Part shown: positions 10,216-62,479 of the stretch, piece by piece
How positions within the stretch are numbered: position 1 is the first letter of the stretch
Layout: every line of letters begins with the position of its first letter
DNA from: a virus
Length of the DNA stretch: 64,000 bases
Reading direction: 5' to 3' (one strand)
IMG/VR virus record: IMGVR_UViG_3300025121_000886
Span: 1-64,000 of that record
Notes under the pieces: generated by a model
What the model was told of the DNA's origin: nothing
The model's database searches: none
What the model saw: the letters and a program-made list of their open reading frames with translations, nothing else
Translations under genes and position numbers: made by a program

Positions 10216-10662
10216 ATGATAGATTATAATAAAATAGTAGAGAGATTAGATATTGTTTCTCAAGAATTTGAAAATAAAGGTTTCAAAGACTTGAGTTTTG
10301 AGTTAGATGAAATTTCACAATCTCTTTTAACAGAAAAAGATGCAGAAAATTCGGGTGATGATATTGATTCAATAAAGGAATCAGTATTTTTTTGGGTAGA
10401 TCAGTTAAGAAAAGATCACAAGGATTTTGGAGATTTAAGTTTTGTTAAAAGATATCTTAATAAAAAAGTTGGGGATAAAAAAGCTTTAGCTTCTCTAAGA
10501 TTATTGGATAGTTTAGACGAAAAAAAATATGCTGTTTTAATCTCTGAATATGTTACAGCCTGTCATAAGGGAAGTTATGCCACGATCGATAACAGTAAAG
10601 TTCATCCAGCTGCTTTGCATATGTGGGGAAATAGAGCATCTTTTAATGAATCTGATGAATGA
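10216..10662 (+). CDS. tagged unknown protein, 148 aa (N-terminal helical hairpin)
   Basis: Starts right after AGGAGGGG. Residues 4-35 form the recurrent two-helix module seen in eleven proteins of this window (RLDIVSQEFENKGF, then DLSFELDEISQSLL). The remaining 110 residues are helical, with WVDQLRKDHKDFGDLSF and a conserved-looking LHMWGN near the end. Similar downstream domains were not recognised. It lies between the sheath and tail tube genes, so it is probably a minor virion or tail-assembly protein. Confidence 0.7.
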   Translation: MIDYNKIVERLDIVSQEFENKGFKDLSFELDEISQSLLTEKDAENSGDDIDSIKESVFFWVDQLRKDHKDFGDLSFVKRYLNKKVGDKKALASLRLLDSLDEKKYAVLISEYVTACHKGSYATIDNSKVHPAALHMWGNRASFNESDE

Positions 10663-10706
10663 GTTTTTCAATAACCACCCTCAATTTTTAGAGATGATGT
10701 TTATTT

Positions 10707-11096
10707 ATGACCTATGATAATTTTTCTGTTTGTGTTAATTGCCTTTCCCCCTGTTGTGCATTATACGCCATAAATGTTACAGATAAAGATATTGAACGCA
10801 TAATGCACATTGTGGGTAAGTCTGAATATTTTGTTAAAACTTCTCGGTGGGGTTTTCCTTACACACATCAAGTAAGGACTAAAAAGATAGATAATTGTGA
10901 TGGTTGGTGTTATTTCACAAATAGGGTAGCTAAAGGACATTATAATTGTGGAATATATGAATATAGACCAGAAGCCTGTAGAGCATTTAGCCCCATTAAT
11001 TGTCCTCATTATTATAAATATGAGGATGGTTTGATTGAAGTAAAAACAATATTAGCACATTTAAAATCAGAGACTATGAATAAGTCCACAAAATAA
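10707..11096 (+). CDS. YkgJ-like cysteine cluster protein
   Basis: A 129-aa protein with the arrangement of the YkgJ family, small proteins thought to bind a metal (zinc or an iron-sulphur cluster). It has CxxCxxxCC at residues 9-17, then CDGWCYF, CGIYEYRPEACRAF and a last NCPHYY. The G-I-Y-x-x-R-P-x-x-C-R signature is characteristic. The enzymatic role of the family is not established. Its place between sheath and tube genes is unusual for a metabolic protein and may point to a modification or assembly role; that is inference. Confidence 0.75.
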   Translation: MTYDNFSVCVNCLSPCCALYAINVTDKDIERIMHIVGKSEYFVKTSRWGFPYTHQVRTKKIDNCDGWCYFTNRVAKGHYNCGIYEYRPEACRAFSPINCPHYYKYEDGLIEVKTILAHLKSETMNKSTK

Positions 11097-11187
11097 AGTG
11101 GTTGGTTATTATGAAAAATAAGAAGACAAATTCAGAAAAAAGATAATTTTTTAGATAAAGAATATTTGCTTTTAAGGAGACAATATA

Positions 11188-11688
11188 ATGGCAAGTAACC
11201 CACATGGTGTTAAAGTTCAAAGTTTAGATTGGAGTCACAAATATGCTCCAACCACGATGACCTATCATGGCATCGTGTTAAAAATGGATGGAAGAGAAGT
11301 AGGCCGTATAACAAGCTGGAATCCTCAACCTTATGGACGAGATGGTGAGCATGTTTATGAGTTGTCCAAAACTACTTTTGGCCGACCAGTAGATTATGTT
11401 CCTGGAAAAAATAATACTTATACTATATCATGTAATCGTGTTGAAGTATGGCTCGATGAATTTGAGCGAGCGATTGGCTTTGATGATGTATGGGTTGATC
11501 TTTGTGATCAGAGAAGACCTTTTACAATTACAGAAACTCTTTATAAGGGTGACGTGAGATATAGAGAATGGACTTATACAGGATGCTGGATCACGAGCAA
11601 AAACCCCGATGCGTACGACGCTGAGGGTAATGCTAAAATTATAGTTTCAGCAGAAATTTCTTATGTAGCTCGTACAAAAACCTTATAG
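11188..11688 (+). CDS. tail tube protein
   Basis: A 166-aa protein of the size and pattern of myovirus tail tube subunits, which stack as hexamers inside the sheath. Supporting segments are LKMDGREVGRITSWNPQ near residues 30-46, YGRDGEHVYELSKTTFGRPVD, and a C-terminal beta strand pair ending AEISYVARTKTL. A strong AAGGAGA site precedes the ATG. Gene order (sheath, tube, assembly proteins, tape measure) agrees with the assignment. Confidence 0.88.
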   Translation: MASNPHGVKVQSLDWSHKYAPTTMTYHGIVLKMDGREVGRITSWNPQPYGRDGEHVYELSKTTFGRPVDYVPGKNNTYTISCNRVEVWLDEFERAIGFDDVWVDLCDQRRPFTITETLYKGDVRYREWTYTGCWITSKNPDAYDAEGNAKIIVSAEISYVARTKTL

Positions 11689-11708
11689 AGTAATTTGGGA
11701 GACTTATT

Positions 11709-12101
11709 ATGAATTTACGAGAAAGAATAGAAGCGAGAAAAAAGAGACAAGCTTCTTTTAATACTTCTTATGTTAGAGTCTACCATGAAGATCCATTGCG
11801 CCTAAAATTTCTTTATGGTCTGGAAAATACAGAATCTTTAAATGACTTGAATATAAAAACAAGTAGATTGAAATTGTCTGTTAAAGCACTGCTAAAAAGT
11901 GCTTCTGGGAAATTTACTATTTCAAGTTTGAAGACCTTAGAAACCGGTGTTATCTTTGTCAAAGGTATTCACGGTGTTTTAGATGGAATGTATTTAACAA
12001 CTGATTATTTGATAGAGTTTCAAGATTTTGAAGGTATTGAAGAATTTGTAAATAATTTATCAGTATATGAAGATGAATTCAAGGTGCAGATAGCTAGTTG
12101 A
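11709..12101 (+). CDS. hypothetical tail-module protein, 130 aa
   Basis: A basic N-terminal helix (LRERIEARKKRQASF) is followed by a compact alpha/beta domain with LETGVIFVKGIHGVLDG. It begins 20 bases after the tail tube stop with a GGAGA site. Genes here often encode tube-associated or tape-measure-chaperone proteins, but no motif allows a firm name. It is the last rightward gene before a leftward insertion of two or three accessory genes. Confidence 0.6.
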   Translation: MNLRERIEARKKRQASFNTSYVRVYHEDPLRLKFLYGLENTESLNDLNIKTSRLKLSVKALLKSASGKFTISSLKTLETGVIFVKGIHGVLDGMYLTTDYLIEFQDFEGIEEFVNNLSVYEDEFKVQIAS

Positions 12102-12112
12102 TGAATATTTTA

Positions 12113-12256
12113 TTATATTTTCTCGCCTTCTATTATATTCAATATTTGTTTTAATTGATCTTCTGTCAGAGAATGTTTAATATCTTCAGTATTATATTTT
12201 TCAAAGAATGCTTTACAATAATTTACAAGTTTTTCAATTCTCTTTTTCTGAATCAT
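12113..12256 (-). CDS. small hypothetical protein, 47 aa
   Basis: A short helical, charged protein (MIQKKRIEKLVNYCKAFF ... LTEDQLKQILNIIEG). The frame could extend to 12313, but that stretch overlaps the zinc-ribbon gene in another frame. The ATG at 12254-12256 overlaps the end of that gene by about 20 bases, suggesting coupling. Function unknown. Confidence 0.4.
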   Translation of the reverse strand: MIQKKRIEKLVNYCKAFFEKYNTEDIKHSLTEDQLKQILNIIEGEKI

Positions 12257-12467
12257 ATCCACATTTACAACAATTATAAATGGTATGTTCTTTAAAGCCA
12301 GGAATATCATCATAGGTGTCTAATGTGCATCCTTTTTTACATTTATGACAAAGATATCTTGTTGTTCTCACTTCTCCATGTCCAGCACCCCAACCAGCGT
12401 GGGGATAACACTTTGAAGTTAAGTCTTTTTTACAATTGGGACAATTTATTTTTTCACCTTTTATCAT
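12234..12467 (-). CDS. small zinc-ribbon protein, 77 aa
   Basis: Three Cys pairs are visible: CPNC at residues 9-12, CHKCKKGC around 40-47, and CCKCG near the C-terminus. This gives one or two zinc ribbons in a protein of only 77 residues. The middle HAGWGAGHGEVRTTRYLC region is reminiscent of zinc-ribbon domains that accompany nucleic-acid enzymes. An AAAGGA site precedes the ATG. It lies just downstream of the N4-type methyltransferase on the same strand and may belong with it functionally. Confidence 0.6.
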   Translation of the reverse strand: MIKGEKINCPNCKKDLTSKCYPHAGWGAGHGEVRTTRYLCHKCKKGCTLDTYDDIPGFKEHTIYNCCKCGYDSEKEN

Positions 12468-12548
12468 TTTTATCCTTTCTATGTAAAAATTTTGTTGTTG
12501 TTCAACTTTTTACAGATTTTTTGAAAAATGATTATATTTATGTAAAAA

Positions 12549-26675: not shown

Positions 26676-27068
26676 CTACTTGTTATTTTGCAGAGAGTTT
26701 TTCTTCTGAACCAATTTTTTCTTTTTATTTCTGAGAACTTCCAACTTTTTTTCTTTTTCTTTTAGGGTTGTATTTAATGTATCAACTTTTTTTCTCAAAG
26801 GGGCAAGGGCTTGTTCACTTTTCCCCTTTTCTTTTAATATATTTATCTTTTTGTATATTTGTTTTTTATTTTTTCTAATATACATAATGTCTTTATAAAC
26901 ACTTTTTATAGCACCAATTATTGAAATAATTAATAGAGCGATTTTACCAATGGCCTTTAATGTGTCCACAACAGTAGCTTCTTTTTGTTGTAATCCTTCA
27001 AGAAAAGAGGCTTCTTTATGACGTTTTTGGTTAATTAACTCTTCTTTTAATATTTTTAGGTTTGGCAT
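26676..27068 (-). CDS. tagged membrane/coiled-coil protein, 130 aa
   Basis: I start at the ATG at 27068 (MPNLKILKEEL). An in-frame TTG six codons upstream is possible. Residues 3-31 are the recurrent helical hairpin (ILKEELINQKRHKEASFLEGLQ). A hydrophobic span follows (AIGKIALLIISIIGAI, about residues 40-56), then a long lysine-rich coiled coil to the end. A short tag, one membrane helix and a coiled coil is unusual for a virion gene. The next gene upstream has the same tag-plus-coil plan without the membrane helix. Confidence 0.65.
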   Translation of the reverse strand: MPNLKILKEELINQKRHKEASFLEGLQQKEATVVDTLKAIGKIALLIISIIGAIKSVYKDIMYIRKNKKQIYKKINILKEKGKSEQALAPLRKKVDTLNTTLKEKEKKLEVLRNKKKKLVQKKNSLQNNK

Positions 27069-27114
27069 AACATTATCCAGTAACAATCTTTAATTGTCAA
27101 TACAATACTTTTTC

Positions 27115-27480
27115 TTAAACATTCATATTATCAAGTTTGGCCTGGTCTAGACGGATTGAGTTATTTATGGCTTTTACAGTTGCTCTTAACCCCATTATTT
27201 TTACTTTATTTAATGCTCCACCCGCTTTTTCTAATTGTTCAATTTTAACAAATATCTTCTTTTTTTGTTCTCTCATTTTCTGGATATTTTTCTTAACAGC
27301 ATCTTTTTTCTTGTTTTTCCCCCCTAATCCTAGATAATCTTTTGTATGGATTAACTCTTTCTTTACCTTTTTGAGGTGCTTTTTAATGCCCGCTTGATGC
27401 AATAATTGTAAATAAGAAGCTTCTTTATAATTTCCATTTTTTTCGAGTTCAATCATTATTTTTTCGATTGTGTTAGACAT
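27115..27480 (-). CDS. tagged coiled-coil protein, 121 aa
   Basis: The ATG at 27480 (MSNTIEKIMIEL) has an AAAGAGA site; an ATG 13 codons upstream lies inside the neighbouring gene. Residues 3-29 are the helical hairpin module (IMIELEKNGNYKEASYLQLL). After this comes a lysine-rich helical region with many E/K heptads (KKKIFVKIEQLEKAGG). It resembles the downstream gene at 26676 in plan, suggesting duplication. Probably a minor virion or assembly protein. Confidence 0.65.
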   Translation of the reverse strand: MSNTIEKIMIELEKNGNYKEASYLQLLHQAGIKKHLKKVKKELIHTKDYLGLGGKNKKKDAVKKNIQKMREQKKKIFVKIEQLEKAGGALNKVKIMGLRATVKAINNSIRLDQAKLDNMNV

Positions 27481-27493
27481 AAATATTTTCTCT

Positions 27494-28450
27494 TTAAGGT
27501 ATTCTTGTGTAATTATCATATCCTTGAACCAGACGGCATGTCAGGTCATGACTTATTAATATTCCAGAAGGTCTGTTAGATTTAACCTCTGTGACTTTCC
27601 ATCTCTGGCCTTCTTCTAAATTACTTGCTTTATCTGTACTTTTTACAACCATAAAATCTTCAGGTGTCACCACAGATATGGTGCTATCTAACCAGGGAGA
27701 TATTGTATTTATTGATTCAAAAATACCGAATTCTGCTAATGTTTTACTCTCAGAATATGTAGGAACATCCGCTTTTATGGTAATATCTTCTCGTATTCTA
27801 TAACGAATATAAATATTGTTTAACAATGGTAAATTTATTTCTGGATTTATCCTTTTAAAGGTAATCCTCATCGTGAGCTTGTTTTGTGTCAGAAGACTTT
27901 CTAAGTTTTCATGGTTTAATGTTAGCCATCTAACACCTGTTTGGTCATAAATTTCAAATATGAGGCTATTACCTTCTTCTAAATTACCGGTGTAGGTGTC
28001 TATACTTTCTACAATCCCCACATTTTTTCTTATGGGTATATCTGTGACAATATAACCTTTTGTTGCTGTTCCTAATAAAGAAAAAGGAACAGGTCTCATT
28101 TGTAGAGAATAATCTGGTATCACATTTACCATGACAGTAGATGGGGATGTTACATCAATTATTTCTGTTAAACAACCAAATTTATTATAGCCACCAACCA
28201 ACCCCACACCCCAGCAAGCTGTACATAATGAATCTGGACCTGCTTCTATACCCCAACATGAACAACGTCTTCCTGATAATAATCGTTGATAGAAATGAAA
28301 TAAAACCTTATCGGTATCTACCACAGACATATTTCTTTCTTTAACAATAGGCAATAACTGTTCCTTCATTATCTTTCGAGCATTATACTCTGTATCTAAC
28401 AAAGGGTTTGTTGCACGAGTTCTTGTTTCTATATATTCTTTAGTTGCCAT
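27494..28450 (-). CDS. putative neck/connector structural protein with Cys knuckle, 318 aa
   Basis: An N-terminal helical part (YNARKIMKEQLLPIVKERN) leads to a zinc-knuckle-like motif RRCSCWGIEAGPDS then LCTACWGVGLVGGY at about residues 61-87. A beta-rich body follows, with paired WLTLNHENLESLL and WLDSTISVV segments. The C-x-C ... C-x-x-C-x-G-x-G knuckle is, from memory, found in phage structural proteins near the head-tail joining genes. First gene of the leftward group; it is divergent from the packaging module, with a 108-base shared upstream region. Confidence 0.6.
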   Translation of the reverse strand: MATKEYIETRTRATNPLLDTEYNARKIMKEQLLPIVKERNMSVVDTDKVLFHFYQRLLSGRRCSCWGIEAGPDSLCTACWGVGLVGGYNKFGCLTEIIDVTSPSTVMVNVIPDYSLQMRPVPFSLLGTATKGYIVTDIPIRKNVGIVESIDTYTGNLEEGNSLIFEIYDQTGVRWLTLNHENLESLLTQNKLTMRITFKRINPEINLPLLNNIYIRYRIREDITIKADVPTYSESKTLAEFGIFESINTISPWLDSTISVVTPEDFMVVKSTDKASNLEEGQRWKVTEVKSNRPSGILISHDLTCRLVQGYDNYTRIP

Positions 28451-33786: not shown

Positions 33787-33944
33787 TTTCAACACAGTCT
33801 CCTTTATTCCTCTTAAATATCTTTATTAGTCACCTCAAATGTTAAGACCTTGATTAATTCTTTTCTTAATAATTACAATATTAAAGACAAACACTAAGTT
33901 TTAATAATTATGTGATATGTGTTTTTAAAAAAGCGAGTGATTTC

Positions 33945-34694
33945 ATGAGCTATATGAATTTAGATAGATCAGGTTTTCAAGTTACAGGTGAATATCAATT
34001 ATCCACCCAAATGTTCGAAGGATATAAATCAGAAATACAATCCAAAAGCGATGGAACAAGAGTGGCTGTAGCTAAAGCAGATGGTATAGAATATGTATTA
34101 GATGTAGATTGGTTAAGAGCCGCATCGAAAACTTATCAAGTTTCAGATAATATTAAGGATTTTGTCTTTGTGGAAGTCCCTGGATTGACAATAGATATCC
34201 CTAATAGAAATATGGATGAGTTTGGTTATGATGTTGTGACAGAGTTTTCTCCCAGATCAGGACGTTTTGTATTTAGAACATTTGTGGGAAAACCAACTTG
34301 CAAAGACCATAATAATAAAGATGTCACAAAAGCCGTGGGTATAAATTTTGATTCTTTTTTGGTGCCCTGGTCTAATGGTTATTATAAGATAAAAACCTTG
34401 TCTGGTTTTGACCGGAGTAAGGACAGTATTCTTGCAAATGAGATACTTACCAAAAAAAGAATTGGTTATAGCATGGGAGCTCTCGTTGGTGAGAGCCGTT
34501 GTTCTATATGCAATGCAGTTTCATGTGTTCCTGCTCACAAACAGTGCATACACTTCCGCAACTATGGGAAGGGCAAACTTTTCCAGGGGAAGTTAATATA
34601 TGATAGATGCAGATATGTTGAATTTATAGAGATGAGTTCTGTTCTGGACCCCGCTGACGTAACAGCCGTGGAAAATAAGCGGGTTTGGGAATAA
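33945..34694 (+). CDS. putative prohead maturation protease
   Basis: Starts at ATG 33945 (a GTG at 33912 opens the frame earlier). Of 249 aa, the core reads PNRNMDEFGYDVV, FRTFVGKPTCKDHNN with His122, and KKRIGYSMGALV with Ser176. His and Ser in this order and context match herpes-assemblin-like prohead proteases. A Cys cluster CSICNAVSC ... QCIHF (Cys186, 189, 194, 201) follows, then EMSSVLDPADVTAV, typical of the family's end. Such proteases cut scaffold, portal and capsid proteins during maturation. Position between portal and major capsid protein agrees. The Cys insert is a variant I recall from large phages. Confidence 0.68.
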   Translation: MSYMNLDRSGFQVTGEYQLSTQMFEGYKSEIQSKSDGTRVAVAKADGIEYVLDVDWLRAASKTYQVSDNIKDFVFVEVPGLTIDIPNRNMDEFGYDVVTEFSPRSGRFVFRTFVGKPTCKDHNNKDVTKAVGINFDSFLVPWSNGYYKIKTLSGFDRSKDSILANEILTKKRIGYSMGALVGESRCSICNAVSCVPAHKQCIHFRNYGKGKLFQGKLIYDRCRYVEFIEMSSVLDPADVTAVENKRVWE

Positions 34695-37084: not shown

Positions 37085-37135
37085 ACAAAAAATCATTGAT
37101 GTCTTAAGATTCTTTTTACAGATATGAGGTTTGAG

Positions 37136-38053
37136 ATGAATATCAAAAAAATTTTCAATGCATTGGGTGATATGCATATAGTTTCAGCCAGACTCAAGAC
37201 TCGCGGAGAAGATGGGTTAGCTTCTCGTATAGAACGTCTTGCAGATAAGATGCTGAATGAGGTTGTTGATGAAGATGAAGCTTCAGACGACCGAAAGAAT
37301 AGAGTAGCATCTATGTTTGAAGAGGGAGTCACACCAGAATTTGTAGATGCAGAAGACAGTTATTCTGGCGATGATTATTTAGAAGAATATCCCATAGACG
37401 ACGAAGAATATATTGATGAGGAGTCTCCCGTTGAAGATTTATCGTTAGATGAGTACCCGGTAGAAGACGAAGGTTTTATCGATGAAGAACTCCCGGTTGA
37501 AGATGAATATTATGAAGATGAAGACCTTAATCTTTCTGATGAATATGCTACAGAAGACACATTTTCTGAAGACGAATATTTAGGAGACAATTATTCAGAA
37601 GATGAATATCCTATAGAGGATGAGAATTTAGATTATAATGATAACGAGGATTTTGATCTTGAGAGTATTGATCTTCAAGCCAGTAGAGTATTTGATGTTT
37701 CTGGTAGAAGGATAAGATCGTCAGCTGATCTTAGAACAGCTGAAGTAGATTTTACTCAAAGTGAGTTTATTACAGCAGCAGGAAAAAAACCGAGTAGATC
37801 TGAAGTTGCCCGTTCTTTTAGAAAGATGAAACAAAAAAAGGGAAAAAAAAAGACTTATGTCTGTTGTGAGAAACCTAGATTAAAGACCACTCTTAGCGGT
37901 GGGAAAAAGATATGGTATTCAAACTGCAAGTATAAAGCAAAATCTTCAACTGGAAAACCAATGTTAGCAAGTGTTTTTCGAGTTGTAGGGAAGGACCCTA
38001 GAAAAAAACCCAGATTTATCATGATGCATAATAAAAAAATGAAGTATTGTTAA
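37136..38053 (+). CDS. tagged acidic/basic head accessory protein, 305 aa
   Basis: The ATG at 37136 follows GAGGT; an ATG four codons upstream has none. Residues 1-43 contain the recurrent helical hairpin (IVSARLKTRGEDGLASRIERLADKML in sense). Then about 140 residues are strongly acidic and repetitive, built from units such as DEYPVEDEGFIDEELPVED. The last 110 residues are very basic (SFRKMKQKKGKKKTYV) with a compact Cys-containing domain (CCEKPRLKTTL ... NCKYKAKSS). Such a polyampholyte just before the capsid gene suggests a scaffold-like or DNA-packaged internal head protein; inferred, not shown. Confidence 0.65.
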   Translation: MNIKKIFNALGDMHIVSARLKTRGEDGLASRIERLADKMLNEVVDEDEASDDRKNRVASMFEEGVTPEFVDAEDSYSGDDYLEEYPIDDEEYIDEESPVEDLSLDEYPVEDEGFIDEELPVEDEYYEDEDLNLSDEYATEDTFSEDEYLGDNYSEDEYPIEDENLDYNDNEDFDLESIDLQASRVFDVSGRRIRSSADLRTAEVDFTQSEFITAAGKKPSRSEVARSFRKMKQKKGKKKTYVCCEKPRLKTTLSGGKKIWYSNCKYKAKSSTGKPMLASVFRVVGKDPRKKPRFIMMHNKKMKYC

Positions 38054-38182: not shown

Positions 38183-39343
38183 ATGGCACTTATTAATCCT
38201 TTCAATCCTTATTCTCAAAATAGAACAGCATCAACTGTTCCAGAATATGTTACTGATAACGGTGAACCAGTAATGGAAACGTTGCGCGCTGGTATTAAGA
38301 AACCTAGAAGTGGAAAAACTTCTTTTTCTAATTCTACTCCTCTTATTGCAAGCAATGGTGAACTTAACGCCACCAGTAAAAGGGACCTCATGAAGAATAT
38401 GCTTACCATGAGGGATATGGTTCAACAGGGGAAAATCCGCAGATCTTCAGCTGATATAACCAGACAGAGATTAGCTGCTCACAAAGAACTTTTAAGACAA
38501 GCCTTCAATGAGAGAAATAGTCAAGTATTTGAAGCGATTGGACAAGTTATTTCTGATGAAATCTATGAATCAATGGGAAGAGAAGGTTTTGCTCGAAATG
38601 TTTTAGCTTTCTGTCCTCTTGAAGGAGATGAAACAGCTCGTATTAAGATCAGAACCAAGGATGTTATTTCTTATGTTGTGACGGCGAACCCTGAAGTGGT
38701 TGCCTGTCATGTAAGAGCCCATTGGCTGTATCCACAAGAATTTTATTTGATATGCACTCTTTTAGCAGAAAATAAAGATATTGCTCAAACCGGTGGTACT
38801 TTAATTGATGATAAATACCAAGACGGTATGGAAAGCATTTTTGTACAGGAAGATCTGGTATGGAAGACCCTTGCTGATTTAGCTGCTCCTGCACAGAATA
38901 ACCTTTATGTTTTTAATACCTTAACACCTTCTACTTTCTCAGCCCTTAGAACTCAGGTGTGGAGATGGGGTATTACACCTACGACAGCTATTATCTCTTT
39001 TGATCTGTGGGATGATATAATCACCGATTCAGAGTTTGCTAATTGGTGGTCAGAGGTAGCGAAACATGAAATCATTCTCACCGGAAAAATTGGTGGTCTC
39101 CTCGATGTAGAACTTAGAACAGATGGGTATCGTCAAGAAAATTTACAGGTTTTAAATCCTGGTGAAATTTATATGTGTGGTGCTCCAGAAAGTTTGGGAG
39201 CAATTTGTGAACGACAACCAGTAATTTCTAAACCAATTGATCAAGCTGTGTTACAACGACCACAAAGAGGATGGTATTTGGAAGCGATCGAGGGTATGGC
39301 TATTGCCAACTCGAAAGCTATCTCAAGAGGCTATCGAGTATAG
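38183..39343 (+). CDS. major capsid protein
   Basis: A 386-aa protein with a strong AGGAG site. The helical N-terminal 110 residues (ATSKRDLMKNMLTMRDMVQQ, RQRLAAHKELLRQAFNERN) could be a delta domain. They lead to an HK97-type body with GREGFARNVLAF, HWLYPQEFYLICTLLAENK, a loop DDKYQDGMESIFV and the C-terminal ILTGKIGGLLDVEL, QVLNPGEIYMCGAP. It follows the protease and scaffold candidates and is followed by a terminator-like hairpin, both as expected for the most expressed head gene. Fold assignment is from pattern and position. Confidence 0.85.
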   Translation: MALINPFNPYSQNRTASTVPEYVTDNGEPVMETLRAGIKKPRSGKTSFSNSTPLIASNGELNATSKRDLMKNMLTMRDMVQQGKIRRSSADITRQRLAAHKELLRQAFNERNSQVFEAIGQVISDEIYESMGREGFARNVLAFCPLEGDETARIKIRTKDVISYVVTANPEVVACHVRAHWLYPQEFYLICTLLAENKDIAQTGGTLIDDKYQDGMESIFVQEDLVWKTLADLAAPAQNNLYVFNTLTPSTFSALRTQVWRWGITPTTAIISFDLWDDIITDSEFANWWSEVAKHEIILTGKIGGLLDVELRTDGYRQENLQVLNPGEIYMCGAPESLGAICERQPVISKPIDQAVLQRPQRGWYLEAIEGMAIANSKAISRGYRV

Positions 39344-39412: not shown

Positions 39413-39459
39413 CCCTCTCTTTTCTCAAAAAATAATATTACATGCTTGAGGAGAAATTT

Positions 39460-40053
39460 ATGAAGTTAATTGAAAAAATAAATTTGGTGATGAAAAAAGC
39501 TCAAGCGCGCGGTGAGACAAATACAGTGATTGAACTTCAAAGAATAGCATCTGAATTAAAACCGATAGATAACAGAAATATCGATAGAAGTTCAGAATCT
39601 AAGATTTCTAATTATGATGCTGATGCTGATGTCTTTATTAGAGAAATTAAGGAAGTTGCTAATTCACTGAAGGCCAAAGGCGAATTTGCTTATGCAAAGA
39701 ATTTAACGGCTGCCGCTCAAGAATTTGTAGAACCACGCGAAGCTTCAACTTCTATAAACACAAAAGAAGATAGAGAAGCCAAAGAATGGGCAGGTCTTAT
39801 ATCAGAAGTAGCTGATGTGGATGAAAAATTGGCTAAAAAATTAATTACAGCCCTTTATGAAGTAGAGTCAGCTAAAAAGAGTAAAGCCAAAAAAAATAAA
39901 AAAGCTGAAGACGTAGAAGCTGAAGATGAAGAAGATACTTCTGAAGAAGACGAGGATTATTCTGAAGAGGATGAAAAAGATTATTCAGAAGATGAAGAAG
40001 ATACCGAAAAAGATGGAAAGAAAAAAGCTAAGAAAAAGGGAAGAGAAAACTAG
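39460..40053 (+). CDS. tagged head accessory protein with acidic/basic tail, 197 aa
   Basis: The ATG at 39460 follows GAGGAG. Two hairpin-type modules are visible: residues 1-35 (LVMKKAQARGETNTVIELQ) and about 57-85 (VANSLKAKGEFAYAKNLTAA). A third helical pair follows (LITALYEVESAKKS). The C-terminal 60 residues alternate acidic runs with a basic end (KKKAKKKGREN). The PRE-AST junction after the second module is a possible maturation site. It lies directly after the capsid protein and matches the 37136 product in tag plus acidic plus basic order, so the two may act together in the prohead. Confidence 0.65.
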   Translation: MKLIEKINLVMKKAQARGETNTVIELQRIASELKPIDNRNIDRSSESKISNYDADADVFIREIKEVANSLKAKGEFAYAKNLTAAAQEFVEPREASTSINTKEDREAKEWAGLISEVADVDEKLAKKLITALYEVESAKKSKAKKNKKAEDVEAEDEEDTSEEDEDYSEEDEKDYSEDEEDTEKDGKKKAKKKGREN

Positions 40054-40551: not shown

Positions 40552-40636
40552 TCGTTTTTGTATATAAAATTTACTCGATTTTATAGGAATATCATATTAA
40601 AAAAATGCACGTTTAAAGTTGTGCTTGGAGGTTTAT

Positions 40637-41530
40637 ATGCACATAGAAACTGAAAAATTAGCCGCTAAAAAGTTGGATTCTATTATTTATAAAATAGATA
40701 AGGTCGCATCAGATTTTGAAGAAAAAGGATACACAGATTTATCTACTATGTTAGATATGGTATCTCATGAGATATTGGCCGGTATTGAACCTTCTGAATC
40801 AAATCCTCCTATTGGATTGAAGGGTGCATCTAATGTTTTATTATGGCAAGATATGATGAAAACTTATGGGGATGAAATAAAAAAATATCCAGACACACGA
40901 ACACGTTGGGCTGCCGCTTTAGCTATTCTGGTTAATGTAGCAAAGCGTAAAGCTATCCCCATTCCTATTCCAGAACTTGTTAATATAGTAAACCCTAAGG
41001 CAGAGATTGTAACTGTTGTGCTGGAACTTGATCAAGAAGCTAAGAAGTTTTCAAGTAAAGTCATAACTTTTGTTAAATCTCAATTTCATGCAATTCCTTA
41101 TAGAAATCTAAAAAAACAACCTGCTAATTGTGGTTTTGAGAAAAAAAATAAACTTTATTATTTTGGATATTATTTATGTCTTGAAATACCTCGGGGGAAA
41201 GAGGTACCTGTTCAAGATGTAGGGTCTGATTTAAGAGAAGCTTTAATGCAAAAATTTAGAATGAAATCTACTGAATTTGATGGAGCTCTCTATAAATTAA
41301 CAGGTGAACGTGACGAGAATTATTCTTATATCACATTCACTGGTGAGGGGGAAGCCGCACAGGTCTGGTTAACCATGTATTTTTACTATTATTTTACAGA
41401 AGATCAAGTAAAAGCAATGTATGATTATATGTATGGGGTTGGTAAAAGCACTCGTTTAACGAATGTTAATACTTTAACAAGAGCAATTCAACGTGTGTTA
41501 AACACCTGGATTAAACGAGGTATTGAATAA
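40637..41530 (+). CDS. tagged structural protein, 297 aa
   Basis: ATG 40637 after TGGAGG. Residues 10-48 carry the helical hairpin in a very clear form (KIDKVASDFEEKGYTDL, then STMLDMVSHEIL). The remaining 240 residues are alpha/beta, with TRTRWAAALAILVNVAKRK, an aromatic-rich centre (LYYFGYYLCLEI) and a C-terminal helical end. It lies among head-to-neck genes. Because the 10216 product shares the closest form of the tag but not the body, the tag behaves like a separate module. Confidence 0.65.
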   Translation: MHIETEKLAAKKLDSIIYKIDKVASDFEEKGYTDLSTMLDMVSHEILAGIEPSESNPPIGLKGASNVLLWQDMMKTYGDEIKKYPDTRTRWAAALAILVNVAKRKAIPIPIPELVNIVNPKAEIVTVVLELDQEAKKFSSKVITFVKSQFHAIPYRNLKKQPANCGFEKKNKLYYFGYYLCLEIPRGKEVPVQDVGSDLREALMQKFRMKSTEFDGALYKLTGERDENYSYITFTGEGEAAQVWLTMYFYYYFTEDQVKAMYDYMYGVGKSTRLTNVNTLTRAIQRVLNTWIKRGIE

Positions 41531-47589: not shown

Positions 47590-48036
47590 ATGGATAACAA
47601 AAATATTTATAATTTATTAAAAGACATCAAAAAAGATGGCTTTTCTGAAGAGGCATCTCTTATAAATAAAGCATTAAAAAAATGGGGTGATAATCATAAG
47701 GTTATAGCCTCATTTGAGAATACATCTGAGCAAGAAACATTAAACTTAAGAACTTTGCGACAATGGATTTTAAATGATTACCGAAAAGTAGCATTTGAAA
47801 TTCATAATGATGGAGTTTTGATTGACCCTGTTGATCAAGAATCTTTTATGCAAGGACCAGCTATGTTAATCACAGGTCATGGTTTTCGTCCTGTTGAGAT
47901 AGCAGTTAATGTTTTTGGGGAGGTTGGTATTAATTATCAAGATGGTGCTTGGTCTAGGAGAAAGGTTCACTCTGAAAATATCATGTCTTTTTATGAGAAA
48001 CTTAAAAGAATTTTGAATGGACGTAAGGGGGATTAA
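47590..48036 (+). CDS. tagged hypothetical protein, 148 aa
   Basis: Residues 4-32 are the helical hairpin (IYNLLKDIKKDGFSEEASL, then INKALKKW). The body has TLRQWILNDYRKVAFEIHND and a beta-rich end (AMLITGHGFRPVEIAVNVF). An AGAGGA site precedes the ATG. It lies between connector-like genes; probably a minor virion protein. Confidence 0.6.
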   Translation: MDNKNIYNLLKDIKKDGFSEEASLINKALKKWGDNHKVIASFENTSEQETLNLRTLRQWILNDYRKVAFEIHNDGVLIDPVDQESFMQGPAMLITGHGFRPVEIAVNVFGEVGINYQDGAWSRRKVHSENIMSFYEKLKRILNGRKGD

Positions 48037-49797: not shown

Positions 49798-49870
49798 TGC
49801 GGGGTGGACCAGCTGGTAGGTCAGAAGACTCATAATCTTCGTGTCGAGGGTTCGACTCCCTCCCCCGCAA
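49798..49870 (+). tRNA. tRNA with anticodon CAU (Met; Ile2 not excluded)
   Basis: A complete 73-nt cloverleaf: acceptor TGCGGGG/CCCCGCA, D stem GACC/GGTC with 8-base loop, anticodon stem GAAGA/TCTTC with loop CTCATAA (anticodon 49831-49833), T stem GAGGG/CCCTC with loop TTCGACT, discriminator A. CCA is not encoded (CTA follows). It begins six bases after a stop codon, inside a late structural transcript, so it must be cut out by RNase P and 3' nucleases. A11-U24 is an initiator-type pair, but the three G-C pairs of the initiator anticodon stem are missing and position 1-72 is paired. I therefore favour an elongator. Confidence 0.92.
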
Positions 49871-49979
49871 CTAACAATAATTCTTCCTATTAATCTCATT
49901 TTTTTTATATCTGTAAAATATCTACATCAAATCTTTAATTTTCATCAACAAACAATTCAAAATAATAGGTGTGGTTGCT

Positions 49980-50498: not shown

Positions 50499-51743
50499 TT
50501 GTATAAAACGCAATCAAATCAGATTAAGAATATGAATAAAGACACCTATAATCTTTTAAGAAGGTTGTGTTGGCATTCAGCGCGTTTGTACAATTACGGT
50601 CTATATACTGTAAGACAGAATTATTTTGAGACGAAGACATATTTACCTTATGTGCAAAATTATCATTATTGTAAGACCAATGAGAATTTTAAGGTTTTAC
50701 CAGCAGCTGTAGCACAGCAGACGTTAAAGGTTGTAGATAGGAGCTTTAAGTCTCTTTTTGGGCTTTTGAATGCTAAGAAGCACAGTAAATATCAGAGTCG
50801 TGTGTCTATCCCACATTATTTACCAAAAGATGGATATTTTCAGGTCATGATACCTAACAATGGGTTTCAGATTAAGGGTAATGAGATAAACATAGGTATA
50901 TCGAGGTTTTTGAAGGAAGATACTGGGATTAAAAATATAGTATTAGATTTTCCGACACAGATTAATGCTAAAGATGTAATAGAAGTAAGGATAATACCGC
51001 AACAGAAGGCACATTACTTTAAAATGGAGGTGGTATATGAGGTAAAAGAACAAGAATTAAAGCTAGAGCATAAAAATGTTTTATCGATTGATATAGGTCT
51101 AAATAATTTAGCGACATGTTTTGATACAAAGAACAATAGGGCTTTCATCTTAGATGGAAGGCGTTTAAAATCAATAAATTACTATTGGAATAAACAAAAC
51201 AGTAAGCTACAAAGTATCAAAGATAAACAAAACATCAGGAATTATACGAAACAACAATTTTTACTGAAGAGGAAGAGAGAAAATAGGATTAAAGACATAA
51301 TAAGAAAGAGCTCTAAGTATATTTCTGATTATTGTATTAAGAATGACATAGGGACGATAATTATAGGACACAATAAAGGTTGGAAGCAAGACATTAATCT
51401 TGGAAGGGTGAATAATCAGAAGTTTGTACAGGTACCTTTTGGATATTTGATGTCAAGCCTTGAGTCTAAATGTGAAGAGTTTGGTATGAAGTATTCAGAG
51501 ATACAAGAGTCCCATACTTCTCTATGTTCGGCTTTAGATAATGAGGAAGTTAAACATCATGATGTTTATATGGGGAAGCGTATATACAGAGGGCTTTTTA
51601 GAAGTAGAGAAGGAAAGCTCGTTAATGCTGATGTTAATGGTGCTCTAAATATTGCTAGGAAGTCAAAAGTAACTGCAATGGAGGTAACTTCTGAGCAGGT
51701 AATGGGTATTGTGGCATACCCTGTAAGAATAAGGGTATTTTAG
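50499..51743 (+). CDS. tnpB: TnpB (IS200/IS605 OrfB) RNA-guided nuclease family, altered RuvC-II
   Basis: A 414-aa TnpB. These are RNA-guided DNA endonucleases, relatives of Cas12, that help the transposon persist. The TTG start at 50499 (MYKTQSNQIK) follows AGGAA and matches the usual N-terminus of this subgroup (NLYNYGLY-like LYNYGLYTVRQ, KVVDRSFKSLF, HYLPKDGYF). RuvC-I is LSIDIGLNNLAT with Asp198, RuvC-III NADVNGALNI with Asp378. At RuvC-II, where most TnpBs have Glu, the text is IIIGHNKGWKQD with His291-Asn292. A Glu at about 337 (IQESHTS) may substitute, as proposed for rearranged TnpB groups. The Cys4 finger is degenerate, with only one Cys. Active or dead nuclease cannot be decided by eye. 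Confidence 0.9.
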   Translation: MYKTQSNQIKNMNKDTYNLLRRLCWHSARLYNYGLYTVRQNYFETKTYLPYVQNYHYCKTNENFKVLPAAVAQQTLKVVDRSFKSLFGLLNAKKHSKYQSRVSIPHYLPKDGYFQVMIPNNGFQIKGNEINIGISRFLKEDTGIKNIVLDFPTQINAKDVIEVRIIPQQKAHYFKMEVVYEVKEQELKLEHKNVLSIDIGLNNLATCFDTKNNRAFILDGRRLKSINYYWNKQNSKLQSIKDKQNIRNYTKQQFLLKRKRENRIKDIIRKSSKYISDYCIKNDIGTIIIGHNKGWKQDINLGRVNNQKFVQVPFGYLMSSLESKCEEFGMKYSEIQESHTSLCSALDNEEVKHHDVYMGKRIYRGLFRSREGKLVNADVNGALNIARKSKVTAMEVTSEQVMGIVAYPVRIRVF

Positions 51744-57185: not shown

Positions 57186-57626
57186 ATGGCAGAATACGCG
57201 GTATTAACAACAAATGGGAGAACATATTTCAGCAAAACCTCTGAAGGTTGGGCAGTTTATGTCTATAGATTTTCTATAGGGACAGGGGGACATAATCCAA
57301 CGACCTATGAGCCCTTAGAAATAACCGATATAGATATTGATGATTTAACCACTCCCATTGAAATATCTCCAAGTATCACAAAAAAATTGATAACGGCTGT
57401 AACTCGACCAAATGATAATAGTATTGCAGCTTTATGTAAGATAGAAGAAGATGAAGCTCTAGAAAATAAACTATCTGAGATAGGTATCTGGGCAAACATT
57501 TATGATGATTCACAAATTCTCCAAGATGAATATCTCATTGCTGTCGTTCATTTCCCTCCCATATACAGAAAAGGTGCTCCCCATACACAAGTCACTTGTT
57601 CTTGGAATGTAATCATAAGTTTCTAA
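57186..57626 (+). CDS. tail-collar-fibre-like protein, paralogue of 53309 product, 146 aa
   Basis: Shares the plan of the 53309 product: VYRFSIGTGGHNPTTYEPLE near residue 28, a central beta region, LENKLSEIGIWANIYDD and a C-terminal strand. The G-T-G-G-H-N motif is the better preserved copy. It begins 14 bases after the spike stop. Two copies flanking a spike gene suggest a module for joining fibres to the baseplate. Confidence 0.65.
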   Translation: MAEYAVLTTNGRTYFSKTSEGWAVYVYRFSIGTGGHNPTTYEPLEITDIDIDDLTTPIEISPSITKKLITAVTRPNDNSIAALCKIEEDEALENKLSEIGIWANIYDDSQILQDEYLIAVVHFPPIYRKGAPHTQVTCSWNVIISF

Positions 57627-57637
57627 CGAGGTTTTCT

Positions 57638-58015
57638 ATGTCATTTAAACTCCCCAAAAAAGAAGTTCTTTTTGAGCTATCTAAAATAGCTCAAGATTTA
57701 GAACACCTAAATAAACCAAATTTAGCTGAAAAACTTGATATGGCCTGTAATATATTAGATGTTTCTCCTAAAGATGAGGACATAAAAAAACTGTTTCTCA
57801 AATATTTTTCAGAGGCTTCAAGTCATTTTAATTCTATTAGTGATTTTTATAACCCTGATTTTCATACAAAGCAGATTAATAATATAAGAAAATTATTAGA
57901 TAAGATAGAAAATGAACTCAAAAATCCATTAACTTCTTATAATCATGAAAATAAAATAGTTAGTTATACCATATTAAACCTATTCAGCTTAATTTTAAAA
58001 GAAGCATCTGATTAA
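57638..58015 (+). CDS. tagged hypothetical protein, 125 aa
   Basis: ATG 57638 follows GAGG; the frame opens earlier inside the previous gene. Residues 8-40 are the helical hairpin (ELSKIAQDLEHLNKPNLAE then KLDMACNILDV). The body is entirely helical, with FLKYFSEASSHFNSISDFY and a basic middle. It separates the spike cassette from the three-member fibre family. Minor virion protein likely; function unknown. Confidence 0.6.
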   Translation: MSFKLPKKEVLFELSKIAQDLEHLNKPNLAEKLDMACNILDVSPKDEDIKKLFLKYFSEASSHFNSISDFYNPDFHTKQINNIRKLLDKIENELKNPLTSYNHENKIVSYTILNLFSLILKEASD

Positions 58016-59481: not shown

Positions 59482-60192
59482 ATGTCTGAAGAATATAAAA
59501 TTATAAATTTTACTGACACAACAGTTCATGTTGCTGGGAAGGATATATCTGTAGGTGGTTATAAATTATACGATTCTAAGGTAATAGAAGATCCTAAAAT
59601 ACAGGCAAAGATCGAAGCTTTAAGAGTCTCTGGACACATTGTTGTAGAATATCAGGGAGTACAGATTACTGAGGATATTTTCTCAAAAAGTTACAGGCGT
59701 CCGGGTGCTCAAATACATGGAACATCTTTTCCAACCACACCACATACAGGCCAAGTATTTTTAAGAACTGATCTCAATATCTATTATTATTGGGATGGAA
59801 CAACTTGGTCTGCCTTTTCCTCTCTAGGTTCAGGATTACCTAAAATAGTAACAGTATGTCATGCTGGCCTAGTAGAAAAAACTGTAACAACCTATTTATT
59901 AGGGTCTGCAACATCGGGTATACCCCTACAAGCATGTAAATTAGACTTTGTTAATATAACAGCTTATGTTGCACCTGGAGCTGGACAGAGCATAACTGTA
60001 AGTGTTATAAACATAACAACGGCTTCTACAAAAACTTATTTATTGGAAAATGATGAAAAATATCATGAATACATAATAGTTGCGGCAAATCTAACATTTT
60101 CAGCAGATGATGAATTGGTGATATCAACGACATCTACAGATGGAAGTATCGGTCAAGATATAAATATTGCACTTCGTTTTAATGAACCATAA
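59482..60192 (+). CDS. small fibre-family protein C with WDGTTW unit, 236 aa
   Basis: Third member: the short N-terminal part IINFTDTTVHVAGKDISVGG and SGHIVVEYQGVQIT aligns with A and B. It is then joined to a GQVFLRTDLNIYYYWDGTTW unit, the same Y-x-W-D-G-x-x-W type as the four units in the 53774 spike. A C-terminal beta domain follows. This suggests shuffling of building blocks between fibre genes. Good GGAGGG-like site before the ATG (59482) after a 70-base gap. Confidence 0.62.
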   Translation: MSEEYKIINFTDTTVHVAGKDISVGGYKLYDSKVIEDPKIQAKIEALRVSGHIVVEYQGVQITEDIFSKSYRRPGAQIHGTSFPTTPHTGQVFLRTDLNIYYYWDGTTWSAFSSLGSGLPKIVTVCHAGLVEKTVTTYLLGSATSGIPLQACKLDFVNITAYVAPGAGQSITVSVINITTASTKTYLLENDEKYHEYIIVAANLTFSADDELVISTTSTDGSIGQDINIALRFNEP

Positions 60193-60211
60193 ATAATTTA
60201 AGGAAAATAAT

Positions 60212-60706
60212 ATGAATATAAATAGTTCATTCTCAACGGTAATAAATGGACTTAAAGTTAAAGGAAAACATTCTTTAGCAAAAAAAGTTCAGGAAAAAAT
60301 GAAAAAGTTAATGGCAGATGTTATAAAAACTGCTGGCTTTAAATTCACAAGGATATGGATAGATAGTCATCATGGACCCTCTTTAGCTATTAATTTCAAA
60401 GATGAATTACATTATGTAGGTGGTGCGAACTCAAGAGATATGGAAGTTGTTGTTCAAGGAAATGATTTGTATATTGATACACATGTTCCAAATCAAGACA
60501 TAAGGTCTTGTGAACTTCATGAACTTGGTAAAGGTGATATCCTCAGAGCTGAAATATTTGAAAGAGGAAGTGATCAATATGGAGAAAAAGTAGAAATATA
60601 CTCTTGTACCAGAGAAATGACCTTCCAGGGCGAAGATTATACAGAAGAGATTGCTAATATGGATACAAAAGAATTTATAGATTATGCAGAAAACTATATG
60701 TTTTAA
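60212..60706 (+). CDS. tagged hypothetical protein, 164 aa
   Basis: Residues 5-34 are the hairpin (FSTVINGLKVKGKHSLAKK then VQEKMKKLM). The rest is a mixed domain with FTRIWIDSHHGPSLAINF, MEVVVQGNDLYIDTHVP and an acidic C-terminus. An AAGGAAA site precedes the ATG. Lies among fibre genes; function unknown. Confidence 0.58.
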   Translation: MNINSSFSTVINGLKVKGKHSLAKKVQEKMKKLMADVIKTAGFKFTRIWIDSHHGPSLAINFKDELHYVGGANSRDMEVVVQGNDLYIDTHVPNQDIRSCELHELGKGDILRAEIFERGSDQYGEKVEIYSCTREMTFQGEDYTEEIANMDTKEFIDYAENYMF

Positions 60707-60747
60707 CATAATTCTAAAATTTTTATGTCAAATATTGGAGAAATTAT

Positions 60748-61191
60748 ATGAATCAATTAAATACCCTAAAAGATATATTTAGAACAGCCCAGATGCTTGA
60801 AAAAGATGGTCATGGTATAGAATCTATAAAACTATACTCTAACATTTTGAATATGCTTGGAGAGAAAGATCCCTGCAATAAAATCATAAAAGATATTGAG
60901 GAAAAATATGAATCATATCAAGACCATTTTCAGAAAACAGGGTCTGAAAAAGTTAGTCCTAATCAAAAAAAGAGACAGTCTTTACAAAAAAGCATAGACA
61001 AAATTGTAGAGATCATAAGTGCTATGAGAGCAGCTAGAAAACCTTTATTAGCTAAATTACATGGCAGTATTTTACCAAAACTTGCTTTAGGACTTCGTTT
61101 AAAATTAAAGATATTAGCTGATAAAATAAAAAAGTTAGAAGAAAAAGTAGAAAAGTTACGAGAACAAAAGAAAAAAATTGCTGACAAATAA
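60748..61191 (+). CDS. tagged coiled-coil protein, 147 aa
   Basis: Residues 4-33 are the hairpin (LKDIFRTAQMLEKDGHGIE then SIKLYSNILNML). The C-terminal half is a lysine/glutamate coiled coil (LKILADKIKKLEEKVEKLR). The central QKKRQSLQKSIDKIVEI resembles the minus-strand tagged coils at 26676 and 27115. It ends five bases before the glycosyltransferase gene. Confidence 0.6.
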   Translation: MNQLNTLKDIFRTAQMLEKDGHGIESIKLYSNILNMLGEKDPCNKIIKDIEEKYESYQDHFQKTGSEKVSPNQKKRQSLQKSIDKIVEIISAMRAARKPLLAKLHGSILPKLALGLRLKLKILADKIKKLEEKVEKLREQKKKIADK

Positions 61192-61196
61192 TTGAA

Positions 61197-61955
61197 ATGT
61201 TCTCAATCTTAATCCCAACCTGTATTCAAAGACTTTCTATAACAAAAGATTTAATACTTCAGATCATAAAGACAAATCCACAAACCATAAAAGATAATCT
61301 ATTAAAAATATACATGACATTACACATCCCCCGTCTTGATAAGCATAATGCCAAGATTATAGAAGAATTATCTTATATAAAAGAGATAAAAATAATCTAC
61401 CCCAAAAATACTCACATCTCAAAAAACTTAAATATTATGTTAACAACAGCCTTACATGAAAATATATCAGATGAATTATATCTCATTAAAATAGATGACG
61501 ACACATATCCACTAGAAAATGATTGGTTAAATGTATATAGAGAAGTATATAATAGAATACCGGGTGTCGGAGTATTATATTCTTGTAAAACTTTAACTGA
61601 AATATATGAAAGGCTTCTTAATAATATTGGAATAACAAGTCAAGAAAAAAGCGGTATGCTTATGTTTTTCAATAGAAAAATAATTAATAAATTGGGTGGT
61701 TTTCAGGAATTGCTTGATCCTTATGGTAATGAAGACCTCGATTTCTTACTTCGTTCTGAACTTTCCGGTCTTAATAATTATGGAGTTCTTAGAACGGGAG
61801 ATCACGGTATCTCAGTAAAACATGGAAAAGAAGTATATCCCAAATTAAACAGTTGCTTTGATAAAAACGCTAGAGAATTAGCACAAGAAAAATTTCAGAG
61901 TATAAAAAAAGAATATCTGACAAAAAACAGATCAACAAAAATATATTTGGAGTGA
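61197..61955 (+). CDS. GT-A fold (family 2-like) glycosyltransferase
   Basis: A 252-aa protein starting with SILIPTCIQRLS, the first strand of a nucleotide-sugar-binding fold. It has a DDD motif at residues 100-102 (YLIKIDDDTYPLENDW) for metal and sugar nucleotide, and GGFQELLDPYGNEDLDFLL (168-186) with the acidic pair expected to act in catalysis. It lacks a ribosome site of its own and probably depends on coupling to the previous gene. In a fibre cluster it could modify fibres or host surface sugars, or phage DNA if bases are hydroxylated. The acceptor is unknown. Confidence 0.72.
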   Translation: MFSILIPTCIQRLSITKDLILQIIKTNPQTIKDNLLKIYMTLHIPRLDKHNAKIIEELSYIKEIKIIYPKNTHISKNLNIMLTTALHENISDELYLIKIDDDTYPLENDWLNVYREVYNRIPGVGVLYSCKTLTEIYERLLNNIGITSQEKSGMLMFFNRKIINKLGGFQELLDPYGNEDLDFLLRSELSGLNNYGVLRTGDHGISVKHGKEVYPKLNSCFDKNARELAQEKFQSIKKEYLTKNRSTKIYLE

Positions 61956-61957
61956 TT

Positions 61958-62479
61958 ATGGGAAATAATATAAAAACAATAGAATTTGAAAATTTTTTGG
62001 TGTCTAAAAAAGACATGCTAGAAGGTCTAAAATCAATAAAAACGGGAAGATCTAGCAATGAGCCATTATCGTTACCCTCTAAAGTGATAGAAATTCCGGA
62101 CAGAAAAGTATTTTTATACATAGGCTGTATAAAAAAATTGGTGTCCATGATGCTCTATGGAAAATTGTCTACAAAGTGTGAAATGCTTGATATGAACGAG
62201 TCCCAATATTATGAGGTACCTTCTAAGGGAGAAGCATTCATTTTCGATCCTGATGAAAGATATGGTGGTCTAGAAAAGATTATGAAGATGTCTGATCTCG
62301 ATGCATTATCAGCACAGATAAAATTAAATAAACCCCTTAAGAAAATAAAACCCCGTCAAGCAAATTATGATAAAAAACCAACTCTTAGCGACATAGTCTA
62401 TGAACTTGAAATACGTGGGAAGACTGTTTTAGCCGATAAACTCCAAGAAAAAATTCAGGATATTAAAGAGGAGATATAA
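61958..62479 (+). CDS. hypothetical protein with C-terminal hairpin tag, 173 aa
   Basis: ATG 61958 follows TTGGAG; GTG 61952 is in frame and overlaps the previous stop. The N-terminal 130 residues form an unknown alpha/beta domain (KVIEIPDRKVFLYIGCIKKL). At the very end, about residues 142-172, is the helical hairpin (LSDIVYELEIRGKTVLADKL then QEKIQDIKEEI). This is the only C-terminal occurrence, showing that the module is position-independent. Confidence 0.6.
   Translation: MGNNIKTIEFENFLVSKKDMLEGLKSIKTGRSSNEPLSLPSKVIEIPDRKVFLYIGCIKKLVSMMLYGKLSTKCEMLDMNESQYYEVPSKGEAFIFDPDERYGGLEKIMKMSDLDALSAQIKLNKPLKKIKPRQANYDKKPTLSDIVYELEIRGKTVLADKLQEKIQDIKEEI

Follow-up and report, generated by a model that had tools for sequence, protein, structure and literature searches.

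A sorting element shared by unrelated proteins is a device of a known kind. The capsid-targeting sequence of phage T4 is described as an N-terminal stretch of 10 to 20 residues that is cleaved (PMC5694885), and the encapsulation peptides of bacterial microcompartments are reported to be amphipathic helices of 15 to 20 residues on enzyme cargo (PMC11157265). Residues 271 to 300 of the P22 scaffold gp8 are described as forming a U-shaped helix-loop-helix located on the inner surface of the procapsid (PMC9965877). Here, we analyze a helical hairpin module of about 30 residues that is attached to small proteins with unrelated bodies in virus record IMGVR_UViG_3300025121_000886 (93,150 bases; hereafter the own record), of which bases 1 to 64,000 form the window studied. 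Like the T4 sequence, the module is one short element on different proteins and is apparently tied to particle assembly; it differs in being a hairpin of about 30 residues that occurs at either terminus, also beside tail-like genes, and lacks a clear cleavage motif. With the encapsulation peptides it has in common a short helical element at either terminus of different cargo proteins, but it is a two-helix hairpin on phage proteins. An N-terminal region common to tail-spike-like proteins of phage RaK2 and others, as presented in PMC3622015, is a different motif. The literature searched, including hairpins in connection with internal head proteins or capsid targeting, yielded no description of the module, and among Pfam and PHROG families of known function there was no convincing match to it. 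The module family appears to be new in the libraries and literature searched, and it touches on the question of how dozens of small proteins find their way into the particles of jumbo phages.

A family of hairpin modules in the virus record

A preliminary description of the window had quoted 12 segments on 11 proteins as copies of one module. The segments exist at the places given; five of the proteins (37136, 39460, 40637, 57638, and 61958) correspond to internal starts of open reading frames (ORFs) 37124, 39442, 40619, 57596, and 61952. Throughout, ORFs and genes are named by position, and G and L codes denote relative records and loci. An ungapped profile of 32 positions built from the 12 segments was run on 116 picked own genes and found, besides its 12 seeds, an independent copy in 85116, which lies beyond the window (E = 1.7e-6; 20.9 bits). 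No other gene exceeded 5.8 bits; the best of 100 shuffled proteomes reached 10.8 bits and the reversed proteome 3.0 bits. In the comparison with shuffled proteomes that had been proposed as a check, the profile was well separated from both shuffled and reversed decoys.

The segments were then scored by leaving each out of the profile, with the number of hits per shuffled proteome scoring at least as high as the measure (100 shuffles). The results were uneven. Six segments were recovered at 0.14 or below: those at the N terminus of ORF 10216-10662 (148 amino acids; module at 10234 to 10329, plus strand; 0.00), the C terminus of ORF 61952-62479 (62375 to 62467, plus strand; 0.00), near the N terminus of ORF 27115-27519 (27391 to 27480, minus strand; 0.02), the N termini of ORF 40619-41530 (303 amino acids; 40682 to 40777, plus strand; 0.02) and ORF 60212-60706 (60218 to 60313, plus strand; 0.04), and near the N terminus of ORF 57596-58015 (57665 to 57757, plus strand; 0.14). 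Four fared more poorly. These were the N terminus of ORF 37124-38053, which has an acidic middle and a basic C-terminal domain (37163 to 37255, plus strand; 0.33), the second hairpin of ORF 39442-40053 (39634 to 39726, plus strand; 1.21), the N terminus of ORF 47590-48036 (47596 to 47688, plus strand; 3.74), and the first hairpin of ORF 39442-40053 (39469 to 39561, plus strand; 15.73), which is weak by sequence. The possible modules at the N termini of ORF 26676-27086 (26979 to 27071, minus strand) and ORF 60748-61191 (60766 to 60858, plus strand) were not recovered.

A stricter test used a profile of 27 segments from other genomes only; these had been recruited by iterating from own copies, so that some influence of the first profile persists. 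Run on the full set of 347 own ORFs, the new profile ranked 61952, 40619, the second copy of 39442, 10216, 60212, and 37124 first to sixth at 13.3 to 7.6 bits, and the next ORF scored 4.0 bits; the best decoy of 50 shuffled sets reached 9.6 bits and beat the last three of these six. ORFs 60748 and 85116 scored at noise level, and 27115, 57596, 26676, and 47590 were absent among the 26 matches listed. The N termini of 47590 and 85116 were similar to each other with a score of 62, and no pair reached 50 in one shuffled set. In the own record, 85116 and 67125 are further likely carriers; 67125 was spotted by eye and was part of the profile whenever it was scored. The module family almost certainly exists. 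Some independent support was obtained for 9 of the 11 proteins first proposed; for 26676 and 60748, as for the first copy in 39442, the evidence is resemblance. The glycine of the pattern that had been given for the module is replaced in 26676 and 57596 (in 57596, by asparagine).

The consensus core of the module is LExxGxxxLAxxL, flanked by hydrophobic positions. Single-sequence AlphaFold models predict that it is a two-helix, helix-turn-helix hairpin: in 10216, helices at residues 4 to 21 and 24 to 45 are joined by a short turn (local confidence, 69 to 82), and 39442 has helices at 2 to 22 and 26 to 43 (confidence, 75 to 82) and at 58 to 78 and 82 to 96 (41 to 75). The idea that the module is a generic helical-hairpin unit, like those of TPR, PPR, or solenoid proteins, that arose or spread without a common function can be weighed here. 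By our reading, the module resembles these repeats in being a helical hairpin with similarly spaced G and A/L; 1 of 37 segments matches PPR in Pfam (E = 7.3e-4), and weak matches to the Nup93 solenoid appear among solved structures (E = 0.013 to 0.038). ORF 60212 scores 15.6 bits against a PPR cutoff of 25, and Pfam repeat families match 1 of the 37 segments. Unlike repeat arrays, the module occurs as one or two units; many proteins carry it, usually at a chain end, it is confined to near relatives, and its genes lie in virion regions. Of 60,250 shuffled ORFs, a single one reached 12.1 bits and none scored higher. We consider a generic unit quite improbable. A search for a known fold with Foldseek and the low-confidence 10216 model gave no match at E ≤ 0.001; many TPR proteins were among the best 50 of the 67 matches at E ≤ 10, for which the confidence of the model is too low to be informative.

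The module in related phages

A profile of the 12 segments plus 85116 and 67125 was searched against 66 of 79 new capsid loci and matched 5 of these 66 IMG/VR capsid relatives at E ≤ 0.1. One of the five, in G004 (E = 0.0025), is a genuine copy at the N terminus of a protein encoded upstream of the portal. No match was found in eight named members of the capsid clade, of which seven are jumbo phages. Alignments limited to nearest relatives gave closer records, including G076 (188 kb), in which this profile had six matches at E ≤ 0.05. After iteration, in which only ungapped hits were added to profiles and G076 133832 was removed by hand, searches of 16 sets (12,050 ORFs) gave 41 copies that score 12 bits or more, carried by 37 proteins from eight records. 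By copies and proteins, these are the own record (14 on 13), G076 (13 on 13), G069 and G074 (4 on 3 each), G068 (3 on 2), and G002, G004, and L163 with one each. Because the 14 own copies served as seeds, their scores follow by construction. Copies below 12 bits, such as G003 13410 (8.4 bits), were not counted, nor were G002 4941 and G076 140637, which look like carriers by eye and score 2.0 and 3.6 bits. The best of 60,250 shuffled ORFs was the one at 12.1 bits already mentioned, and reversed ORFs reached 7.1 bits at best. The large phage genomes Lu11, NCTB, and G005 (5,015 ORFs of at least 40 amino acids) held no copy.

An alignment of 37 of the 41 profile rows, omitting four near-identical ones, matched 8 of 49 records at E ≤ 0.01 (G002, G004, G068, G069, G070, G072, G074, and G076) and again none of the eight named phages. 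The statement in the preliminary description that such hairpins occur in other large phages was borne out only for near relatives, with no copy found in those eight. All matching records sit on one side of a well-supported split in the capsid tree. No copy was seen in L023, L024, G073, and G075 on the same side, and three of these four are fragments (G073, 17 kb). The module label requires two changes on the first capsid tree, which lacked G070, G072, G073, and G075, and five on a tree with those four scored as module-free; G070 and G072 do carry the module, so that the latter label is wrong. Two PHROG families of no assigned function, phrog_17638 (E = 2.3e-4) and phrog_38542 (E = 0.006), match within the modules of 10216 and 40619, a hint that the module may also exist in other phages.

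A cellular origin was also considered and found little support. Four of 237 genomes of the phylum Omnitrophota matched at E ≤ 0.001, one of them being the L163 phage contig itself; L219 and L220, two of the others, hold gene pairs that we read as ATP-grasp-ligase-like. L163 (JAQUAP010000069.1) is a 5.3-kb contig binned in a Candidatus Omnitrophota metagenome-assembled genome, with a capsid protein 43% identical to the own one and a hairpin-ended protein encoded after it. The contig is a weak hint at the host.

Unrelated bodies, gain and loss, and placement

The carriers are small (58 to 309 amino acids; median, 131). When own proteins were compared with their modules masked, no own-own pair was alike at E ≤ 0.01, which agrees with the earlier statement that the attached bodies share no similarity. 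Some combinations of body and module are kept between phages (G004 8966 with G076 105480, G002 5247 with G076 126585, and sets in G068, G069, and G074). Others are not. The C-terminal domain of own 37124 recurs without the module in G075 59304 (26% identity; E = 3e-7), where it likewise immediately precedes the capsid gene; the domain of G076 87118 recurs module-free in G002 and G003 (53% and 65%), and the body of G076 174602 does so in another gene of G076 (31%) and in L046 (37%). Since three bodies have homologues without the module, there is direct evidence that it was gained or lost on given bodies. Together with its presence at N termini, C termini, or both, this bears out the mobility that had been proposed. 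Modules from one genome resemble each other more than they resemble those of another genome (P = 0.0004; own record and G076 only), a pattern driven by G076 (22.4 within G076, 11.5 within the own record, and 10.2 between them). It may reflect recent duplication or the way in which the copies were found.

Placement bears on the suggestion that the hairpin is a propeptide of the T4 type, which would lead internal head proteins into the prohead and then be cut off by the prohead protease. With N-terminal defined as a start by residue 30 and C-terminal as an end within 12 residues of the protein end, 28 of the 41 copies are N-terminal, 12 are C-terminal, and 1 is internal. The N-terminal majority fits a propeptide, as do the presence of a head maturation protease gene, the tagged genes that flank the capsid gene, the other repeated N-terminal tags of related phages, and the propeptides described on giant-phage head proteins (PMC5694885). 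The 12 C-terminal copies do not, since a propeptide of this type would be expected at the N terminus only, and copies also adjoin tail-like as well as head genes. Nor did a consistent cleavage motif emerge after the 28 N-terminal copies. The observed and expected counts were 3 and 2.7 for AxE, 7 and 2.6 for SxE, 10 and 5.3 for [LI]xE, and 6 and 3.0 for [TS]A; the SxE and [LI]xE counts are somewhat above expectation, but the motif window overlaps the second helix, which makes excesses hard to read, and the motif of the own protease may differ. None of the four candidate motifs was clear. The propeptide named in the preliminary description is not supported by these data, and we regard a cleaved tag of the T4 type as unlikely.

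Carrier genes lie in virion regions

The window has PHROG matches for terminase (17415), portal (16240), head maturation protease (18299), virion structural protein (16710), and major capsid protein (2522). Among the matches listed, the terminase and capsid proteins share roughly 29 to 34% identity with counterparts in phages such as Lu11, PaBG, and NCTB. A megablast search with the first 24 kb gave no match among 50,697 phage records. No module was found in the products of the major capsid gene (38183 to 39343, plus strand; phrog_2522) or the head maturation protease gene (33912 to 34694, plus strand; phrog_18299). ORF 37124 lies directly before the capsid gene and ORF 39442 directly after it, and ORF 47590 is the next gene after the head-tail connector gene.

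The first 80 kb of G076 contain 138 genes and not a single carrier; of the 13 carriers, 11 lie at 80 to 150 kb and two at 174 kb. The virion stretch at 80 to 150 kb, whose limits were set after the positions of virion orthologues had been seen, holds 76 of 249 picked genes (hypergeometric P = 5.5e-5 for carriers there). This value is approximate: the gene picker dropped ORFs under longer antisense ORFs (67125, which was re-added by hand, and G076 85551 and 85878), and the count of 249 lacks the latter two. The enrichment in virion regions of related phages that the preliminary description had looked for is thus present in G076, with the virion region defined by gene position. G069 and G074 have three carriers each, every one of them no more than two genes away from an orthologue of a neighbor of an own carrier (P = 0.0015 and 0.001, respectively, compared with random small genes).

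Four places recur. The first is between the large sheath-like and tube-like genes (6637 and 11188 in the own record, on either side of 10216), as also in G068, G069, and G074 and, by eye, in G002; "sheath-like" is our reading, without a PHROG or Pfam match, and "tube-like" reflects a weak PHROG tail-tube match. The second is beside or within two genes of the 27494 orthologue in the own record, G068, G069, G074, and G076, and the third is beside the 57186/53309 family in the own record, G069, and G074. The fourth place closely follows the capsid gene: the carrier is the next gene in the own record, L163, and G003 (where the copy is below the 12-bit cutoff) and the third gene in G076.

Such neighborhoods could mean that the tagged proteins are assembly chaperones or scaffolds for the structural protein of the adjacent gene, with the hairpin as their link to a common factor of host or phage origin, for example a chaperone or the membrane. 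The small size of the carriers would suit this role, and several of their genes adjoin or lie close to genes for capsid, portal, protease, connector, sheath-like, and tube-like proteins. Against it, the carriers tested had no convincing PHROG or Pfam match to a known chaperone, and the bodies differ in kind. A chaperone role is possible but doubtful.

A hairpin protein encoded after the capsid gene

As a simple rule, a protein with an acidic stretch encoded no more than 2.5 kb downstream of the capsid gene was taken as the post-capsid protein; 59 of 88 fetched loci gave one (42 distinct proteins). By eye, many of these proteins start with a helical hairpin, continue into an acidic tail, and finish in a short basic stretch. 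The post-capsid protein has the layout of a scaffold or core protein. In the own phage, it has two hairpins near the N terminus, and in G076 and L163, it has one at each end. The C-terminal hairpin is strongly basic (net charge of +8 in G076 and +10 in L163) and scored 12.0 bits in G076 and 16.5 bits in L163 when both rows were left out of the profile, compared with 10.9 bits for the best decoy. The post-capsid hairpin of G003 is weaker (8.4 bits with the full profile).

P22 gp8 has a helix-loop-helix of similar length, and the post-capsid proteins G076 139591 and L163 2907, encoded near the coat gene, end in a basic hairpin. The likeness is one of layout only: the module is spread over many proteins, the hairpins of the own post-capsid protein lie near the N terminus, and gp8 was absent among 26 solved-structure matches at E ≤ 10. 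The 14 virion bands of phage PaBG in Table 1 of PMC7412058 do not include the post-capsid product (gene 79). Its absence from that table fits a scaffold shed during maturation, or a product of too low a mass or abundance to be seen.

A possible docking role

We tentatively read the hairpin as an uncleaved docking module in virion assembly, restricted to one part of the Lu11/PaBG-like clade; judged from sequence, this falls just short of probable. An uncleaved domain is favored over a cleaved peptide because of the copies at both ends, the double copies, the head- and tail-side places, and the lack of a clear cleavage signal. We infer that the hairpins would bind one common partner during particle assembly and that docking would deliver many small proteins, their hairpins intact, to heads and tails under construction. 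The likeliest partner or ancestral carrier would be the acidic post-capsid protein, or whatever that protein binds, because it itself holds hairpins and has the scaffold or core layout; that either is the particular partner nevertheless seems rather unlikely. A broader, dockerin-like arrangement is conceivable, if somewhat doubtful, in which one uncleaved hairpin lets one partner, possibly the post-capsid protein, recruit at least a dozen unrelated small proteins to head and tail, with other tags serving the same purpose in relatives. Such a tag would allow sequence-based prediction of virion-assembly proteins in the clade, would point to the post-capsid gene as a hub, and could serve capsid engineering as a cargo-loading tag.

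Several observations weigh against a docking role or against its link to the post-capsid protein. The bodies are uncharacterized, and "virion protein" is assigned by gene position only. The mean predicted local distance difference test scores of the 10216 and 39442 models are only 65.7 and 63.5, and the conserved L, E, G, L, A, and L look structural, with no binding surface visible. No copy was found in G075 (177 kb), which belongs to this part of the capsid tree, and G069, G068, and G074 are near relatives and hence not independent. Proximity of carriers to the orthologues of own-carrier neighbors was not significant against random small genes in G076 (P = 0.14), G068 (0.12), or G002 (1.0). 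Against small genes already beside virion orthologues, it was not significant in G069 (0.18), G074 (0.24), G068 (0.40), G076 (0.997), or G002 (1.0), and reuse of gene slots did not significantly exceed that given by virion adjacency. A profile of own copies only gave the C-terminal post-capsid hairpins 7.8 (L163) and 4.7 (G076) bits. Homology between the module and the N-terminal post-capsid hairpin seen across the clade is only suggestive: hhalign gave a probability of 16% (E = 0.0016; none of 200 column shuffles was as good), the area under the curve was 0.76 compared with 0.69 for the reversed profile, and a profile of 29 such N termini across the clade did not raise the own modules above noise.

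Other repeated N termini and neighboring genes

Other N-terminal tags recur among the relatives. One (near KNELKALYKKDPKLAIEVAKVLGYKIKA) is found on nine small proteins, four of them encoded just before the capsid gene: G002 (L093 to L095) 300, 6316, 6792, 16059, 30444, and 30709 and G003 (L096) 7971, 11560, and 11905. Membership of this LYKKDPKLA tag in the hairpin family was not supported: 35 of 200 column-shuffled profiles scored as well. A beta-strand-like N terminus (near MRKIxVxIxTTA or MKIQLAVA) is repeated in G005 (L126 to L140) 233814, 234411, 239411, 243721, 264719, and 269374 and in Lu11 158055, 159756, and 160208, and the capsid N-arms of Lu11, HRDY3, BcepSauron, and NCTB hold VATA, IATA, FASA, or VTSA stretches. 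Both are perhaps propeptides cut after [TS]A. A stretch near "KEQKAAYIKAHPNSKYAK" is repeated close to the N termini of G005 233814, 234411, and 239411 and of L079 11 and 817. Upstream of the capsid gene, L027 4445, 5094, 5583, and 6545 have, by eye, a similar M[SG]YL[ND]xV/I start, and NCTB 141235 to 154945 encodes a run of proteins with a common N-terminal stretch resembling LFxGTPPTxAD.

Within the virion region of the window, an IS605 OrfB/TnpB-like protein is encoded at 50499 to 51743 (plus strand; Pfam OrfB_IS605, E = 3.4e-25; Cas12f1-like_TNB), near a tRNA-Met gene at 49798 to 49871. A gene for tRNA-His guanylyltransferase (Thg1) lies at 3185 to 4036 (plus strand; Pfam E = 1.5e-27). Outside the window, the record holds arginase-family (82287 to 83360), nucleoside hydrolase (86405 to 87322), and macro-domain (79141 to 79626) genes, all on the minus strand.

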